A DNA stretch of 38,816 nucleotides, taken from IMG/VR virus record IMGVR_UViG_3300037264_002724, positions 1 through 38,816 of that record. One strand, written 5' to 3'. A model generated the notes under the pieces. It worked only from the letters and a program-made list of their open reading frames with translations. It ran no database searches and was not told where the DNA came from. Origin of the DNA: a virus. The number at the start of each line of letters is the position of its first letter. Positions within the stretch are counted from its first letter, which is position 1. A program made the position numbers and the translations under genes. Of the stretch, positions 34,943 to 38,660 are shown piece after piece.

Positions 34943-35031
34943 GGAAACGATTGAAAGTGGCTATTCTACCTAGTTTGCTAAACTAGCAGGCGGGGAAACC
35001 CGCCTTGTGGGTTCGACGCCCACCGTTTCCG
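34943..35031 (+). tRNA. tRNA-Ser (anticodon GCT), long variable arm
   Basis: GGAAACG/CGTTTCC acceptor, anticodon stem CTAGT/ACTAG with loop TTGCTAA, a long variable arm (GGCGGG...CCCGCC), T arm GTGGG/CCCAC, discriminator G. No encoded CCA; followed by CT. Reads AGC/AGU. Confidence 0.93.
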
Positions 35032-35032
35032 C

Positions 35033-35147
35033 TTGGTGGTGTGGCGGTTCGCACGCGAGCAATAGGGTGCGGACGGCTGGCCTGGCGGTGAAATTCCGTC
35101 TGAAAAACAAGGTCATAGTCCGAGTAGCACTTTAAGCCTACCACCAA
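35033..35147 (+). ncRNA. Structured 115-nt spacer RNA between tRNA-Ser and tRNA-Leu
   Basis: Outer stem TTGGTGGT (35033-35040) with ACCACCAA (35140-35147), perfect eight pairs. Inside: GCAC/GTGC (about 35051/35067), GGAC/GTCC enclosing TGGCCT/AGGTCA (one G.U), which encloses GGCGG/CCGTC. It starts right after the CT trailer and ends two bases before the next tRNA. There is no ORF. It does not fit the tRNA fold, and the outermost pairing argues against an HDV-like ribozyme layout. T4 also has stable non-tRNA RNAs in its tRNA cluster. Class unknown. Confidence 0.5.
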
Positions 35148-35149
35148 AT

Positions 35150-35231
35150 GGTCATGTGGCGGAATTGGTATACGCGCGAGTCTTAGAAACTCGTTCCGAA
35201 AGGAGTGTGGGTTCGACTCCCACCATGACCA
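35150..35231 (+). tRNA. tRNA-Leu (anticodon TAG), long variable arm
   Basis: GGTCATG/CATGACC, anticodon stem CGAGT/ACTCG, loop CTTAGAA, variable arm TTCCGAAAGGAGT, T arm GTGGG/CCCAC, discriminator A, then CT. Normal class II Leu; reads CUA. Confidence 0.92.
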
Positions 35232-35237
35232 CTGTTA

Positions 35238-35320
35238 GGGTGTACTACGACTGTGGGAAGCGAAATCGGCTGTAACCCGATTGTACTCAGTGCTAAGGGG
35301 TTCGAATCCTCATACACCCA
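35238..35320 (+). tRNA. tRNA-Tyr (anticodon GTA), copy 1
   Basis: GGGTGTA/TACACCC, anticodon stem ATCGG/CCGAT, loop CTGTAAC, variable arm GTACTCAGTGCTA region, discriminator A, then CT. D arm and T stem are weak (4 bp with a mismatch), so function is less certain than copy 2. Confidence 0.78.
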
Positions 35321-35325
35321 CTCAT

Positions 35326-35409
35326 GTAGCGTTTGGACATTGGCAAGTCCACTTGGCTGTAACCCAAGCGCCCTTTTGGGCATTGCAGGTTCAACTCCTG
35401 CACGCTACA
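35326..35409 (+). tRNA. tRNA-Tyr (anticodon GTA), copy 2
   Basis: GTAGCGT/ACGCTAC, D stem GGAC/GTCC, anticodon stem CTTGG/CCAAG, loop CTGTAAC, variable arm GCCC/GGGC, T arm GCAGG/CCTGC, discriminator A, then CT. Perfect stems. Five bases after copy 1; sequences differ, so not a recent tandem duplicate. Confidence 0.92.
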
Positions 35410-35411
35410 CT

Positions 35412-35495
35412 AGCGATGATTGATGTAGTCCGCGTAAATTCGGGGTGCCCTCAATTAAAGTGAATAAGGGCGACTTTCGGCTTTATTCAGTCGCT
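35412..35495 (+). ncRNA. Structured spacer RNA after tRNA-Tyr copy 2
   Basis: Closing stem AGCGA (35412-35416) with TCGCT (35491-35495); inner 8-bp stem GAATAAGG/CTTTATTC with one G.U. No ORF. It begins after the CT trailer and ends five bases before the next tRNA. Confidence 0.4.
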
Positions 35496-35500
35496 TATAT

Positions 35501-35575
35501 GGCACGGTAGACCAATTGGTAGGAGTCGCCACGCTCAGAACGTGGACAGTGTGGGTTCGAATCCCTCCCGTGCTA
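35501..35575 (+). tRNA. tRNA with Leu anticodon CAG, short (class I) variable loop
   Basis: 75 nt. GGCACGG/CCGTGCT (G1.U72 wobble), anticodon stem CCACG/CGTGG, loop CTCAGAA, variable loop only ACAGT, T stem GTGGG/CCCTC with one U-U mismatch, discriminator A, then CT. Bacterial tRNA-Leu normally has a long arm, so decoding of CUG is by anticodon only; the charged amino acid is uncertain. Confidence 0.85.
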
Positions 35576-35577
35576 CT

Positions 35578-35724
35578 ATGAAAGAAGTTTTAACCAACAG
35601 AGATAAGGTTTTAGCTCCACGGCTAGGAAAAGGCTGGTGTATCTGCGATAGGGCAATTGTGTATCATTACCAGAAATGCCCTATTTGCAAGCGAAGAAAC
35701 GGTAGGAAAAGATTCAAGAAATAA
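35578..35724 (+). CDS. Small zinc-finger-like protein between tRNAs (48 aa)
   Basis: ATG exactly two bases after the tRNA (CTATG). Product MKEVLTNRDKVLAPRLGKGW, then CICD and CPICKRR: a CxC/CPIC four-cysteine metal site, then a very basic end (RNGRKRFKK). Stop TAA two bases before the next tRNA. No ribosome site, because upstream is the tRNA's 3' arm. Basic zinc proteins of this size can bind RNA; unproven. Confidence 0.6.
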   Translation: MKEVLTNRDKVLAPRLGKGWCICDRAIVYHYQKCPICKRRNGRKRFKK

Positions 35725-35726
35725 AT

Positions 35727-35801
35727 GGCACGGTAGACCAACTGGCAGGAGTCGCCACGCTTAGAACGTGGACAGTGTGGGTTCGAATCCCTCCCGTGCT
35801 A
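35727..35801 (+). tRNA. tRNA with Leu anticodon TAG, short variable loop
   Basis: Almost identical to the tRNA at 35501: GGCACGG/CCGTGCT, stem CCACG/CGTGG, loop CTTAGAA, variable loop ACAGT, discriminator A, then CT. Reads CUA. A duplicate with one anticodon change. Confidence 0.85.
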
Positions 35802-35821
35802 CTGAATGGCGGGATTTAAAA

Positions 35822-36370
35822 ATGGATCGACTTAATATAGTCTGGAATGCGGCGGATGGGGAAGTTGCTACCAGAAACAAGCTAGAAGATAGGTTGCTTT
35901 TGTTTTCACTTGTTTATGGTTTAAAACCTCAAAAATGTTTGGACATAGGGACATATAAAGGGGGGTCAGCACAAGTAATAGTTACGGCTTTGGATGAATG
36001 TGAAGAAGGAAGTGTGATATCCATTGATCCTAACCCACAAGTCAACGAAGAAGTTTGGAATAGCATTAAGCATCGCTGCACGATAATTGTGGGGCATTCA
36101 CCGCAAGACATTCCAGAAGAAACTTTTGATTTTGTGTTTATTGACGGAAACCATAATGATGTTTACAGCGACCTAAAAGCACTATATCCAAAACTGAACA
36201 CAGGAGCTTATATCTTGTGTCATGATTGCTATTATCACAATGTTGCGAAAGGAATAGAAAGAATTTTGCGAGAAACTGACCTGATTGACTGCGGAATACT
36301 TAGTAAAAAGACATTTGAAGCACGGGGTCATAAGTTTCTCGGATCAAGGTTATTAAGAACGGCCACCTAG
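35822..36370 (+). CDS. SAM-dependent methyltransferase (Rossmann class I) inside the tRNA array
   Basis: 182 residues. ATG 35822 is used; the frame is open 5' through the tRNA. Motif I is KCLDIGTYKGGSAQV, motif II-like SVISIDPNPQV, motif IV FDFVFIDGNHNDVYSDL, with a C-terminal Cys/His region (HDCYYHN). The pattern is that of the Methyltransf_24-type group, which acts on sugars or small molecules as well as RNA. The stop TAG lies inside the next tRNA (10-base overlap). Within a tRNA array a tRNA-modification role is a tempting inference, not shown. Confidence 0.72.
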   Translation: MDRLNIVWNAADGEVATRNKLEDRLLLFSLVYGLKPQKCLDIGTYKGGSAQVIVTALDECEEGSVISIDPNPQVNEEVWNSIKHRCTIIVGHSPQDIPEETFDFVFIDGNHNDVYSDLKALYPKLNTGAYILCHDCYYHNVAKGIERILRETDLIDCGILSKKTFEARGHKFLGSRLLRTAT

Positions 36371-36435
36371 ACCAACTGGTAGGAGTCGTACCTCTCAAAA
36401 GGGTAACAGTGTGGGTTCGAATCCCACGGTGGCTA
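36361..36435 (+). tRNA. tRNA with Leu anticodon CAA, short variable loop
   Basis: GGCCACC/GGTGGCT (G1.U72), anticodon stem TACCT/GGGTA (last pair T.G), loop CTCAAAA, variable loop ACAGT, perfect T stem GTGGG/CCCAC, discriminator A, then CT. Reads UUG. First 10 bases are also the end of the methyltransferase gene. Confidence 0.83.
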
Positions 36436-36437
36436 CT

Positions 36438-36578
36438 ATGATTACAAGTATTGAATGGCACAATAGACTTTGGAAAAAAATGACCTTTTGGCAGAAGACT
36501 AAAAGCGTAATCTTTTATACTGGATTGTTTATTGTGCTAAGTATATGGGACTGTTATGATCGTGCGCGAGGTAAATAA
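36438..36578 (+). CDS. Small membrane protein between tRNAs (46 aa)
   Basis: ATG two bases after the tRNA (CTATG). MITSIEWHNRLWKKMTFWQKT then a single hydrophobic segment SVIFYTGLFIVLSIW and a charged end. Stop TAA one base before the next tRNA. One predicted transmembrane helix; function unknown. Confidence 0.5.
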   Translation: MITSIEWHNRLWKKMTFWQKTKSVIFYTGLFIVLSIWDCYDRARGK

Positions 36579-36579
36579 T

Positions 36580-36665
36580 GGAAGGTTTGGGCATTGGCAA
36601 GCCCCCTCGGTTGGAAGCCGAGTACACCCGCAAGGGTGTGGAGGGTTCGACTCCCTCACCTTCCG
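36580..36665 (+). tRNA. tRNA-Ser (anticodon GGA), long variable arm
   Basis: GGAAGGT/ACCTTCC, D stem GGGC/GCCC, anticodon stem CTCGG/CCGAG, loop TTGGAAG, variable arm CACCCGCAAGGGTG, T arm GAGGG/CCCTC, discriminator G, then CT. Reads UCC/UCU. Confidence 0.93.
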
Positions 36666-36668
36666 CTT

Positions 36669-36757
36669 GGAGAGTTTGGGCATGTGGCAGGCCCACCCGT
36701 TTCGAAAACGGACAAGCCCTGAAAGGGGCTTGGAGGGTTCGACTCCCTCACTCTCCG
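36669..36757 (+). tRNA. tRNA-Ser (anticodon CGA), long variable arm
   Basis: GGAGAGT/ACTCTCC, anticodon stem CCGT/ACGG, loop TTCGAAA, variable arm AAGCCCTGAAAGGGGCTT, T arm GAGGG/CCCTC, discriminator G, then CT. Reads UCG. Three bases after the previous tRNA. Confidence 0.91.
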
Positions 36758-36761
36758 CTTT

Positions 36762-36841
36762 GGAAAGGTTGGGCTAATGGAAAGCCGCGCCATCCTAAGA
36801 TGGTCCTGAAAAGGTTGTGGGTTCGATTCCCATTCTTTCCG
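36762..36841 (+). tRNA. Ser-type tRNA with abnormal anticodon loop (CCT or CTA?)
   Basis: 80 nt. GGAAAGG/TCTTTCC acceptor, D arm as in the Ser tRNAs next to it, variable arm CCTGAAAAGG, T arm GTGGG/CCCAT, discriminator G, then CT. The anticodon arm pairs GCCAT/ATGGT, leaving only six loop bases (CCTAAG), or four pairs with eight (TCCTAAGA); no standard seven-base loop forms. If U33 is the T before CC the anticodon is CCT (Arg AGG); if the loop is shifted it is CTA (amber). Body is serine-like. Identity open. Confidence 0.65.
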
Positions 36842-36843
36842 CT

Positions 36844-37011
36844 ATGAAAGAAGATTATTGGGTTGAAAAAATTAAGGGAGATTGGTGGTGTGTATATCAC
36901 GAAACAATGGAAAAACCACTAGCCTGTTTCCCAAAGAAAAAACAAGCTGTTGCTTTTATGGGGAAAGAGATTAAAAAACATGAAATGGTTATGGTGCCAG
37001 CTAATACATAG
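36844..37011 (+). CDS. Small DUF2188-like protein (55 aa)
   Basis: ATG two bases after the tRNA's CT. MKEDYWVEKIKGDWWCVYHE then KPLACFPKKKQAVAFMGKEIK and a final beta segment: the layout of small DUF2188-like proteins (W-x-V-x-x-x-G...A...T/K...A...A). Stop TAG overlaps the next small ORF by 32 bases. Function unknown. Confidence 0.5.
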   Translation: MKEDYWVEKIKGDWWCVYHETMEKPLACFPKKKQAVAFMGKEIKKHEMVMVPANT

Positions 37012-37093
37012 ATGGTTTTGTTGGCAAAAATTGGGTTTGGTACGTTGGGGAATTAGATGCAATAAATGCGGTTGGATAGTGAAGCATAATTAA
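36980..37093 (+). CDS. Trp-rich mini-protein with CNKCGW zinc-like site (37 aa)
   Basis: MKWLWCQLIHRWFCWQKLG then RCNKCGWIVKHN. Nine aromatic residues in 37, one CxxC pair plus other Cys/His. Starts inside the previous ORF in another frame. The stop TAA lies directly against the first base of the next tRNA, the same zero-to-two-base rule followed by the other ORFs here, which supports its being real. Confidence 0.4.
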   Translation: MKWLWCQLIHRWFCWQKLGLVRWGIRCNKCGWIVKHN

Positions 37094-37178
37094 GGACTGG
37101 ATTGAAAGTGGCTATTCTACCTAGTTTTGAAAACTAGCGAGCCGTAAGGCTCTGTGGGTTCGACTCCCACCCTTTCCG
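37094..37178 (+). tRNA. tRNA-Ser (anticodon TGA), long variable arm, imperfect acceptor stem
   Basis: Anticodon stem CTAGT/ACTAG with loop TTTGAAA, variable arm GAGCCGTAAGGCTC, T arm GTGGG/CCCAC, discriminator G, then CT. The acceptor GGACTGG/CCTTTCC has two mismatches (positions 4 and 5). The D-arm and anticodon body match the tRNA-Ser(GCT) at 34943. Reads UCA; may be partly degenerate. Confidence 0.82.
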
Positions 37179-37180
37179 CT

Positions 37181-37348
37181 ATGGGCAAGAAGAGAACTAG
37201 ATACTGTGTAAGAACCAACCCGCCCAAAGGTTGGCAGATATGGGATCGAAAAATGGAAAAATGGTGGGGCAAACCTACCAAAGAATTCCCTTCTGTAATC
37301 ATTGACCGTTTGAACCAGGGCGGTGATAAGTCTGACATGAAGTATTAA
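37181..37348 (+). CDS. Small basic protein between tRNAs (55 aa)
   Basis: ATG two bases after the tRNA (CTATG). MGKKRTRYCVRTNPPKGWQIWDRKMEKWW, then EFPSVIIDRLNQGG. Basic and aromatic; no family recognised. Stop TAA one base before the next tRNA. Confidence 0.5.
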   Translation: MGKKRTRYCVRTNPPKGWQIWDRKMEKWWGKPTKEFPSVIIDRLNQGGDKSDMKY

Positions 37349-37349
37349 T

Positions 37350-37425
37350 GGCACGGTAGACCAACTGGCAGGAGTCGCCACACTTAAAACGTGGACAGTG
37401 ATGGGTTCGAATCCCTCCCGTGCTA
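37350..37425 (+). tRNA. tRNA with Leu anticodon TAA, short variable loop
   Basis: GGCACGG/CCGTGCT (G1.U72), anticodon stem CCACA/CGTGG with one A-C mismatch, loop CTTAAAA, short variable loop (one extra base before the T stem), discriminator A, then CT. Reads UUA. The fourth short Leu tRNA. Confidence 0.8.
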
Positions 37426-37427
37426 CT

Positions 37428-37607
37428 ATGAATAAATTTGGAATGTTAAACCATCCTGGGTTCTATAGGTTTGTTCGCAGGAAAATGGTCAAAGAATGCG
37501 AGTTTAAAACTCGCAATAAAGAGCGGTTGGGATATCGTGGTCAAAAACAACGATACTCAGTGTGGCGAGCAGAATACAATAAGAAATGGGAAGAATTAGG
37601 TTTATAA
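37428..37607 (+). CDS. Small basic protein between tRNAs (59 aa)
   Basis: ATG two bases after the tRNA (CTATG). MNKFGMLNHPGFYRFVRRKMVKECEF then RLGYRGQKQRYSVWRAEYNKKWEE. Strongly basic, one Cys, helical; unrecognised. Basic mini-proteins next to tRNAs could be RNA-binding, as inference. Confidence 0.5.
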   Translation: MNKFGMLNHPGFYRFVRRKMVKECEFKTRNKERLGYRGQKQRYSVWRAEYNKKWEELGL

Positions 37608-37645
37608 ATCCTCCATTTTTACCGATACTAAGGTATTAGGAGGAT
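37608..37645 (+). promoter_or_regulatory. Hairpin that hides the ribosome site of the next mini-ORF
   Basis: ATCCTCC (37608-37614) pairs exactly with GGAGGAT (37639-37645), the ribosome site four bases before ATG 37649. TACC (37620-37623) with GGTA (37632-37635) extends the fold. A translational switch is likely if the ORF is real. Confidence 0.55.
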
Positions 37646-37648
37646 ACA

Positions 37649-37714
37649 ATGACGCCAAAAGAGATACAAAAACGAAGTTGTCGGAATGCTCGAAAATCTT
37701 TTTCGATGAAGTAA
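37649..37714 (+). CDS. Mini-ORF (21 aa) with sequestered ribosome site
   Basis: MTPKEIQKRSCRNARKSFSMK, GGAGG before the ATG and a stop two bases before the next tRNA. Very short; support comes from its strong ribosome site, the covering hairpin and its fit to the pattern of the array. Confidence 0.35.
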   Translation: MTPKEIQKRSCRNARKSFSMK

Positions 37715-37716
37715 AT

Positions 37717-37800
37717 GCGGTAGTGTCGTAACTGGTAGCCGAGCAAGGTTGAGAGCCTTGTGCCCGCAAGGGCGTGTGGGTTCGACTCCCACCTACCGCA
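37717..37800 (+). tRNA. tRNA-Leu (anticodon GAG), long variable arm
   Basis: GCGGTAG/CTACCGC, anticodon stem CAAGG/CCTTG, loop TTGAGAG, variable arm GCCCGCAAGGGC, T arm GTGGG/CCCAC, discriminator A, then CT. Reads CUC/CUU. Confidence 0.93.
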
Positions 37801-37802
37801 CT

Positions 37803-37864
37803 GAATGCGATGAAAGAAGCTGAAAAGTCACTGTAAGGGGTGAAAGTCCTAATAAATCGCATTC
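37803..37864 (+). ncRNA. Structured spacer RNA after tRNA-Leu(GAG)
   Basis: Closing stem GAATGCGAT (37803-37811) with ATCGCATTC (37856-37864), nine perfect pairs beginning right after the CT trailer; inner part A/G-rich with GTCAC/GGTGA. No ORF of note. It ends four bases before the next tRNA. Confidence 0.5.
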
Positions 37865-37868
37865 TTAT

Positions 37869-37956
37869 GGCCCAATGGCGGAATTTAAACTGGTATACGC
37901 GCGAGTCTCAGAAACTCGTTCCTTCGGGAGTGTGGGTTCGAATCCCACTTGGGCCA
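37869..37956 (+). tRNA. tRNA-Leu (anticodon CAG), long variable arm
   Basis: GGCCCAA/TTGGGCC, anticodon stem CGAGT/ACTCG, loop CTCAGAA, variable arm TTCCTTCGGGAGT, T arm GTGGG/CCCAC, discriminator A, then CT. The D loop is slightly enlarged (GGAATTTAAACTGG). Reads CUG; canonical counterpart of the short tRNA at 35501. Confidence 0.92.
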
Positions 37957-37959
37957 CTG

Positions 37960-38010
37960 TGGAACGTTCCATAAGACTTTCGGTGGGTGGATATTGCGAC
38001 TTCAACCGAA
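37960..38010 (+). ncRNA. Structured spacer before tRNA-Leu(TAA)
   Basis: Palindrome TGGAACGTTCCA (37960-37971), then stem TTCGGT (37979-37984) with ACCGAA (38005-38010). No ORF. Two simple hairpins in a short spacer. Confidence 0.35.
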
Positions 38011-38014
38011 TCGT

Positions 38015-38096
38015 GGCCGTGTGGCGAAATTGGCATACGCGCTTGACTTAAGATCAAGTTCCGAAAGGATTGGGGGTTCAAGTCCCTCCACGGCTA
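38015..38096 (+). tRNA. tRNA-Leu (anticodon TAA), long variable arm
   Basis: GGCCGTG/CACGGCT (G1.U72), anticodon stem CTTGA/TCAAG, loop CTTAAGA, variable arm TTCCGAAAGGA, T stem GGGGG/CCCTC (one mismatch), discriminator A, then CT. Reads UUA. Its last three bases overlap the stop of the convergent protease gene. Confidence 0.9.
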
Positions 38097-38660
38097 CTTA
38101 ATTTTCTTAACTTTATGTAAATCTTGGCGTTTTACTGCCGTAGGACTCCAAATAGCAATACCATAACGATTAAGCTGTATCCCATCAGCTTCCTCATCGT
38201 GCCAACGCCCAATGAATTCGTCATTTGGTAAAAATCCACGATGGCCTTTGATGGAAGGGTCCATAAAGTAAATTTTGTCATAGGTATAGCCAATTGCGAC
38301 TACATAATGACCGCTATGGTTATTTTCGGTGTATTTTTTCTGGTTGCCCCAGGCTTGAATAGAGCAAATTACAGGGATTCCATCGTCAAGATATTCGTGA
38401 AGGTCTTTGATTGACATTTTTGATTTAGTTACTACGGTCAAGCCAAGTTCACGGGCGACACGAATGATATCTTTTGGGTGTGTGCCATTTTTATATGTTG
38501 TATTACATTTGTCAATGTAAAACTGTTCGTTATTAGGGCCAACATTGAAGTGGACAGCGATGGCCCTCAAAGCGGAAGCACCGCAGGAAAAGCTTTTGGG
38601 TTGTCTGACTGACGGTAACTTGACTTTTATGTGCGATTTTGGTACATTGAAAATCTCCAT
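38094..38660 (-). CDS. C39-like papain-fold cysteine protease
   Basis: 188 residues. ATG 38660 is chosen because AGGGGGTGG precedes it. Motif QPKSFSCGASALRAIA (oxyanion Gln and nucleophile Cys), GHYVVAIGYTYDKIYFMDPS (His and Asp). This is the layout of the peptidase C39-like group (bacteriocin leader or small-peptide cleaving). There is no transporter domain and no signal peptide. It is the second papain-fold protease of the window, unrelated in sequence to the first. Confidence 0.75.
   Translation of the reverse strand: MEIFNVPKSHIKVKLPSVRQPKSFSCGASALRAIAVHFNVGPNNEQFYIDKCNTTYKNGTHPKDIIRVARELGLTVVTKSKMSIKDLHEYLDDGIPVICSIQAWGNQKKYTENNHSGHYVVAIGYTYDKIYFMDPSIKGHRGFLPNDEFIGRWHDEEADGIQLNRYGIAIWSPTAVKRQDLHKVKKIK

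Follow-up and report, generated by a model that had tools for sequence, protein, structure and literature searches.

A tRNA array in a genome fragment of a large phage carries four genes that very probably encode functional leucine tRNAs lacking the long variable arm. On the sequence evidence, they would be charged by leucyl-tRNA synthetase (LeuRS) and would decode CUG, CUA, UUG and UUA as leucine. The textbook bacterial tRNA-Leu has a long arm, and the same phage carries long-arm leucine tRNAs as well; the unusual feature is this pairing of a long and a short set in one genome.

Short and long leucine tRNA genes in one array

The window, the whole 38.8-kb stretch of DNA that was analysed, is a phage fragment with contractile tail genes (tail sheath, tail tube and baseplate hub) that also encodes its own CTP synthase and ribonucleotide reductase. 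Its final 3.2 kb hold a tRNA array made up of Leu, Ser and Tyr tRNAs and one unnamed Ser-like gene. The Leu genes comprise four with variable loops of 5-6 nt (CAG, TAG, CAA and TAA) and four with long arms (TAG, GAG, CAG and TAA):

35150..35231, + strand, long-arm tRNA-Leu(UAG) with a 13-nt variable arm (ARAGORN, Rfam RF00005)
35501..35575, + strand, short tRNA-Leu(CAG) (ARAGORN; Rfam RF00005, 53.4 bits)
35727..35801, + strand, short tRNA-Leu(UAG) (ARAGORN; Rfam RF00005, 51.1 bits)
36361..36435, + strand, short tRNA-Leu(CAA) (ARAGORN; Rfam RF00005, 49.5 bits)
37350..37425, + strand, short tRNA-Leu(UAA) (ARAGORN; Rfam RF00005, 37.4 bits)
37717..37800, + strand, long-arm tRNA-Leu(GAG) (ARAGORN, Rfam RF00005)
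37869..37956, + strand, long-arm tRNA-Leu(CAG) (Rfam, 31 bits over 37874-37950; sequence)
38015..38096, + strand, long-arm tRNA-Leu(UAA) (ARAGORN, Rfam RF00005)

The four short genes, which a preliminary description of the sequence had picked out, were called by both ARAGORN and Rfam RF00005, and their loops of 5-6 nt set them apart from class II tRNAs, in which the variable arm spans at least about 12 nt. Each has the G1-U72 pair and the A73 that had been described. The T-stem U-U mismatch reported for three of the four is U50-U64 in the CAG, TAG and TAA genes and is absent from the CAA gene, whose T stem is complete and which is the only CAA (UUG-reading) tRNA in the window. The short CAG tRNA has the 5-nt variable loop ACAGU, and the short UAG gene is 96% identical to it; the pair is an anticodon switch on one scaffold. 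The variable loop of the short UAA tRNA is 6 nt as parsed, with one extra base adjoining the T stem.

Long-arm twins were confirmed for TAG, CAG and TAA, and we found in addition the long GAG gene at 37717, which had not been listed. The long CAG gene was not called by ARAGORN, probably because its D loop has about 6 extra bases. The long tRNA-Leu(CAG) is perhaps defective, and such a defect may leave CUG to the short CAG tRNA.

Fold and anticodon register of the short tRNAs

Because single-sequence RNA folding gave no cloverleaf for three of the four short tRNAs, we relied on comparative evidence, using 234 distinct short Leu tRNAs, drawn from bacterial genomes as well as phage contigs, that align without gaps. 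The cloverleaf pairs are kept in 98.1% of cells, compared with a mean of 62% after the 3' letters were redealt, a figure that is not to be read as a probability since the sequences are kin. The controls in which the stem is slid preserve this kinship and still fail: the anticodon stem is paired in 96% of cells in register and in 32-35% when slid by 1-3 bases. U33 is present in the anticodon loop of 227 of the 234 relatives, and the short tRNAs hold their Leu anticodons in a proper 7-nt loop with U33. A wrong register of this stem had been named beforehand as a way in which the description could fail; since the stem pairs in register and fails when slid, the anticodons are correctly read. The D-arm motif of the scaffold was found four times in the window, compared with 0.06 matches expected from shuffles.

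Leucylation determinants in the short tRNAs

In E. coli, the determinants of leucine identity are A73, A15-U48, G18G19, A20a and the contacts between the D loop and the T loop, while the anticodon and the long arm are not crucial; variants of E. coli tRNA-Leu that have lost both the anticodon arm and the long variable arm stay active (PMC9976931). The short CAG, TAG and CAA tRNAs keep U8, A14, A15-U48, G18G19, A20a and A73, and so does the short TAA tRNA, with U48 in place if its extra base is assigned to the T stem. A73 stands in all four short window tRNAs and has a frequency of 1.00 in every short Leu group that we scored. To avoid bias from the search motif, the determinants were also scored on 116 viral short Leu tRNAs without the D-arm motif, and 92% of these have all five scored features together (U8, A14, A15-U48, A20a and A73), compared with 85% of long Leu tRNAs and at most 25% of any other isotype (25% being Ala). 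With a Leu anticodon, a 5-nt loop and the LeuRS determinants, the four short genes have the make-up of a short-arm tRNA-Leu, the TAA gene with one extra base. The short form retains just those LeuRS determinants that in-vitro selection found to matter.

The motif TAGNCCAAYYGGYAGGAGNC was searched in GTDB genomes and IMG/VR, and at least 216 tRNAs carry it (at least 89 cellular and at least 127 viral). Among the matches listed, the anticodon was a Leu anticodon in 216 of 216 (CAG, UAG, GAG, CAA, UAA and two AAG) and the variable loop had 5-6 nt in 214 of 216. One scaffold with many anticodons indicates that the charging enzyme ignores the anticodon. AlaRS requires G3-U70, and SerRS requires the long arm and G73. 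The short tRNAs of the window have no G3-U70, no long arm and no G73, which leaves LeuRS by elimination. A phage-encoded class I synthetase was considered as the charger, and none (PF00133) was found in the window, in the 340-kb sister phage G001 or in LR756511.

When the anticodon and the variable loop were masked, long Leu was the commonest best match, yet for only about one third of the short tRNAs, and the others scattered over isotypes; the masked bodies are not clearly Leu, a point against the leucine reading. Descent from another isotype was also considered, and the masked-body profile classification pointed to no single other isotype. Of 242 viral short Leu tRNAs, 122 have the G1-U72 wobble, which is less frequent in long Leu tRNAs (16 of 62) and in other isotypes (about 13%). 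The likeliest reading of the sequences is that the short tRNAs are ordinary tRNAs for leucine that lack the variable arm.

We therefore propose, as the most probable model, that the host LeuRS charges the short tRNAs through A73 and the corner formed by the D loop and the T loop (U8-A14, A15-U48, G18G19 and A20a), independently of the anticodon and of the variable arm. With an enzyme that needs neither, copies of a single short scaffold could take on altered anticodons and so read CUG, CUA, UUG and UUA. The short tRNAs, once expressed, would decode these codons as leucine alongside the long-arm Leu tRNAs of the phage.

CUG, CUA, UUG and UUA still mean leucine

The preliminary description offered, as one option, that another synthetase charges the short tRNAs, so that CUG, CUA, UUG and UUA would be read differently in phage genes. 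An unusual body under a Leu anticodon and the G1-U72 pair could be taken as signs of such recoding. We aligned the window genes to their orthologs in G001, most of whose proteins are 65-94% identical to those of the window, and a few also to fetched parts of LR756511; the comparison rests mainly on G001, itself a carrier of the short set. Leucine is kept at 76% of CTG, 79% of CTA, 87% of TTG and 83% of TTA codons, and in the same comparison at 82% of CTT and 75% of CTC, codons that are not matched by the short set of the window. In the sister phages, CUG, CUA, UUG and UUA swap freely with CUU and CUC, and the replacements are mostly I, M, V or F. CTP synthase and NrdA, compared with solved cellular homologs, agree with the leucine reading, with few CUG codons to go by (3 of 12 at Leu, and 10 of 12 within I/L/M/V/F).

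Free exchange with CUU and CUC indicates that the four codons still mean leucine, and none of them is out of line with its standard residue as the target of a recoding tRNA would be. The genetic code is unchanged in this phage and recoding is not supported. The LeuRS determinants kept in most of the short tRNAs and the lack of a PF00133 match in the three sequences searched also speak against it, and we consider recoding through a non-LeuRS enzyme highly improbable.

Short leucine tRNAs in other phages

The same scaffold, for which a search in other phages had been suggested, was found there. A BLAST search with the short CAG gene matched 112 named phage records, some of which were verified as short, with hosts that include Streptomyces, Erwinia, Mycobacterium, Gordonia, Pseudomonas, Pectobacterium, Synechococcus and others. 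Wherever the scaffold matches in named phages are annotated, they are annotated as tRNA-Leu. The matches in Streptomyces phage Tomas, Gordonia phage Sixama and Microcystis phage Mwe-JY26 are short by ARAGORN, and tRNAs of Erwinia phage vB_Eam-MM7 and Synechococcus phage S-CRM01 match the short scaffold of the window.

Among tRNA-rich phage loci, sampled as those collected for holding a short Leu tRNA, most Leu anticodons are served by the short form alone. Some of the large arrays have only short Leu tRNAs, such as L251, which has 41 tRNAs and a short one for each of the five Leu anticodons. Having long and short forms for several anticodons, as the window and G001 do, is rare among these loci. 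The only CAG tRNA found in G001 is short, and the short set is therefore not purely redundant. In six short Leu tRNAs the D arm is still of the kind usual in long ones. Since the Streptomyces chromosomal tRNAs described below also have bodies unlike the phage scaffold, loss of the arm probably happened on more than one occasion.

Short leucine tRNAs on actinobacterial chromosomes

A long arm had been taken as the rule for bacterial tRNA-Leu, a premise that fails for many actinobacteria as well as for phages. Four genomes out of five (a Mycolicibacterium, two Streptomyces and a Streptomonospora) gave a short Leu(CAA) as the sole leucine tRNA with that anticodon, and the CAA leucine tRNA of one Nocardia is long. 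Of 41 Streptomyces genomes, 15 have a short and 14 a long UAG leucine tRNA, none shows both, and the other 12 gave no clear match. Short and long were scored here by match length, with 17 verified by ARAGORN and at least 16 genomes rechecked with a looser pattern; 'sole' or 'only' for a chromosomal CAA or UAG tRNA means the only one found, as the pattern may miss a gene with an odd loop.

These chromosomal tRNAs resemble the window set in having a 5-nt loop, often ACAGU, together with A73 and a Leu anticodon. Unlike the window, the genomes that carry them yielded no long counterpart with the same anticodon, and the Streptomyces UAG and CAA bodies differ in sequence from the phage and window scaffold. 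The exact D-arm motif occurred in one of 296 actinobacterial genomes, the query itself; its presence throughout the phylum was thus rejected, the motif being rare there though short Leu tRNAs are not. A conserved gene partner of the chromosomal TAG tRNA was also sought, and none is claimed, for the ORFs in the largest neighbouring cluster overlap or abut the tRNA and resemble spurious translation products. A study of M. tuberculosis singles out three Leu tRNAs as long-looped (PMC11541572), which suggests that its remaining Leu tRNAs do not have a long loop.

A further suggestion was that the short RNAs are uncharged or regulatory tRNA-like decoys absorbing host nucleases, for which the redundancy of their anticodons with the long set of the window would speak. 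Yet the leucylation determinants and U33 are conserved, the short form supplies the sole Leu tRNAs in many phage arrays and the sole CAA or UAG leucine tRNAs found in several actinobacterial chromosomes, and G001 yielded no CAG tRNA other than a short one. It is very unlikely that the short tRNAs are decoys. What stands of the preliminary description is a real second set of leucine tRNAs with a different structure, without its recoding and decoy readings.

Relation to known short leucine tRNAs

A 2019 study reported a short-loop tRNA-Leu(TAG) from a horizontally transferred tRNA cluster in Mycobacterium mucogenicum/phocaicum, where the normal long form is also present (PMC6582537). As in the window, a mobile tRNA cluster holds a short-loop tRNA next to a long isoacceptor, which is chromosomal in that case. 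That cluster has the short form for one anticodon only, compared with four in the window, and it was mentioned in passing with its identity untested there (PMC6582537). Animal mitochondrial tRNA-Leu(UUR) likewise has no long arm and is leucylated mainly through A73 and A14; it is served by the mitochondrial LeuRS and belongs to an unrelated lineage, and the likeness is drawn from a review rather than from sequence (PMC9976931). We found no description of the phage-wide or the chromosomal pattern in the open-licence literature, and no phage paper describing the short Leu form. Contrary to the textbook long arm, the short form occurs widely, both on the chromosomes of actinobacteria and in phages whose hosts are unrelated. 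Because Streptomyces species differ in whether their UAG tRNA is short or long, natural variation offers a test of what the arm does.

Possible reasons for carrying both sets

The simplest answer to why the window phage carries both sets is a larger supply of tRNA, a gain in dose. Another possible advantage, which we put forward only tentatively, is resistance: the arm would have been lost under selection by host toxins or nucleases that recognise class II tRNAs by their long arm, and the short set would sustain leucine decoding while the long set is attacked. Such a role would supplement, and not contradict, charging and decoding as leucine. The occurrence of both sets in the window and G001 fits it, and phage tRNAs escape tRNA-cleaving defences in other systems (PMC11555353). 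The mycobacterial toxin MenT3 prefers tRNA-Ser and no longer makes its long extensions once the variable loop is deleted (PMC11541572); wild-type tRNA-Leu, however, is not preferred by MenT3. In most phages with short Leu tRNAs, the anticodon concerned is not also carried by a long-arm copy, and the use of short ones on actinobacterial chromosomes means that loss of the arm needs no defence as its cause. Moreover, the short and long CAG tRNAs have identical anticodon loops (CUCAGAA), so that nucleases reading the loop would not be evaded there.

In its general form, this idea would have phages repeatedly adopt armless Leu tRNAs, and the present lineage keep both kinds, because host effectors read the long arm. 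We regard the general form as unlikely. If true, it would amount to a structural, arm-based escape from defence, distinct from the known route through the anticodon loop, and a phage with both forms provides a test of the arm as a defence target.

Other features of the tRNA arrays

In both related phages the tRNAs are sorted by class. G001 (loci L084-L100) has little besides Leu, Ser and Tyr tRNAs, the exception being one other class I tRNA (Glu). In LR756511 (L039, L101-L103), a related phage of 595 kb, the Leu, Ser and Tyr tRNAs lie together at about 429-443 kb, and some 50 class I tRNAs are located at 176-291 kb. Its CUA-anticodon tRNA (LR756511.1, 179588-179661), called Pyl by ARAGORN, is a possible amber suppressor or sign of TAG recoding.

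In the window, the gene at 36762-36842 has a Ser-like tRNA body (G73) with an anticodon loop of only 6 bases (CCUAAG), for which ARAGORN named no anticodon; it is either a broken gene or an unusual decoder. All 15 tRNA genes of the window (34943-38100), short and long, have CT directly after base 73 and none has CCA, and small ORFs in this region often begin with ATG right after that CT. Between tRNA-Ser(GCT) and tRNA-Leu(TAG) lies a strongly folded RNA (35033-35147, z -3.6), which has no Rfam match at the gathering threshold and is 95% identical in G001 (L089). A second folded element between tRNA genes (37803-37864, z -3.1) has a 9-bp terminal stem and no relative beyond the window among the fetched loci. 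The array also includes a gene of the Methyltransf_24 family at 35813-36370.
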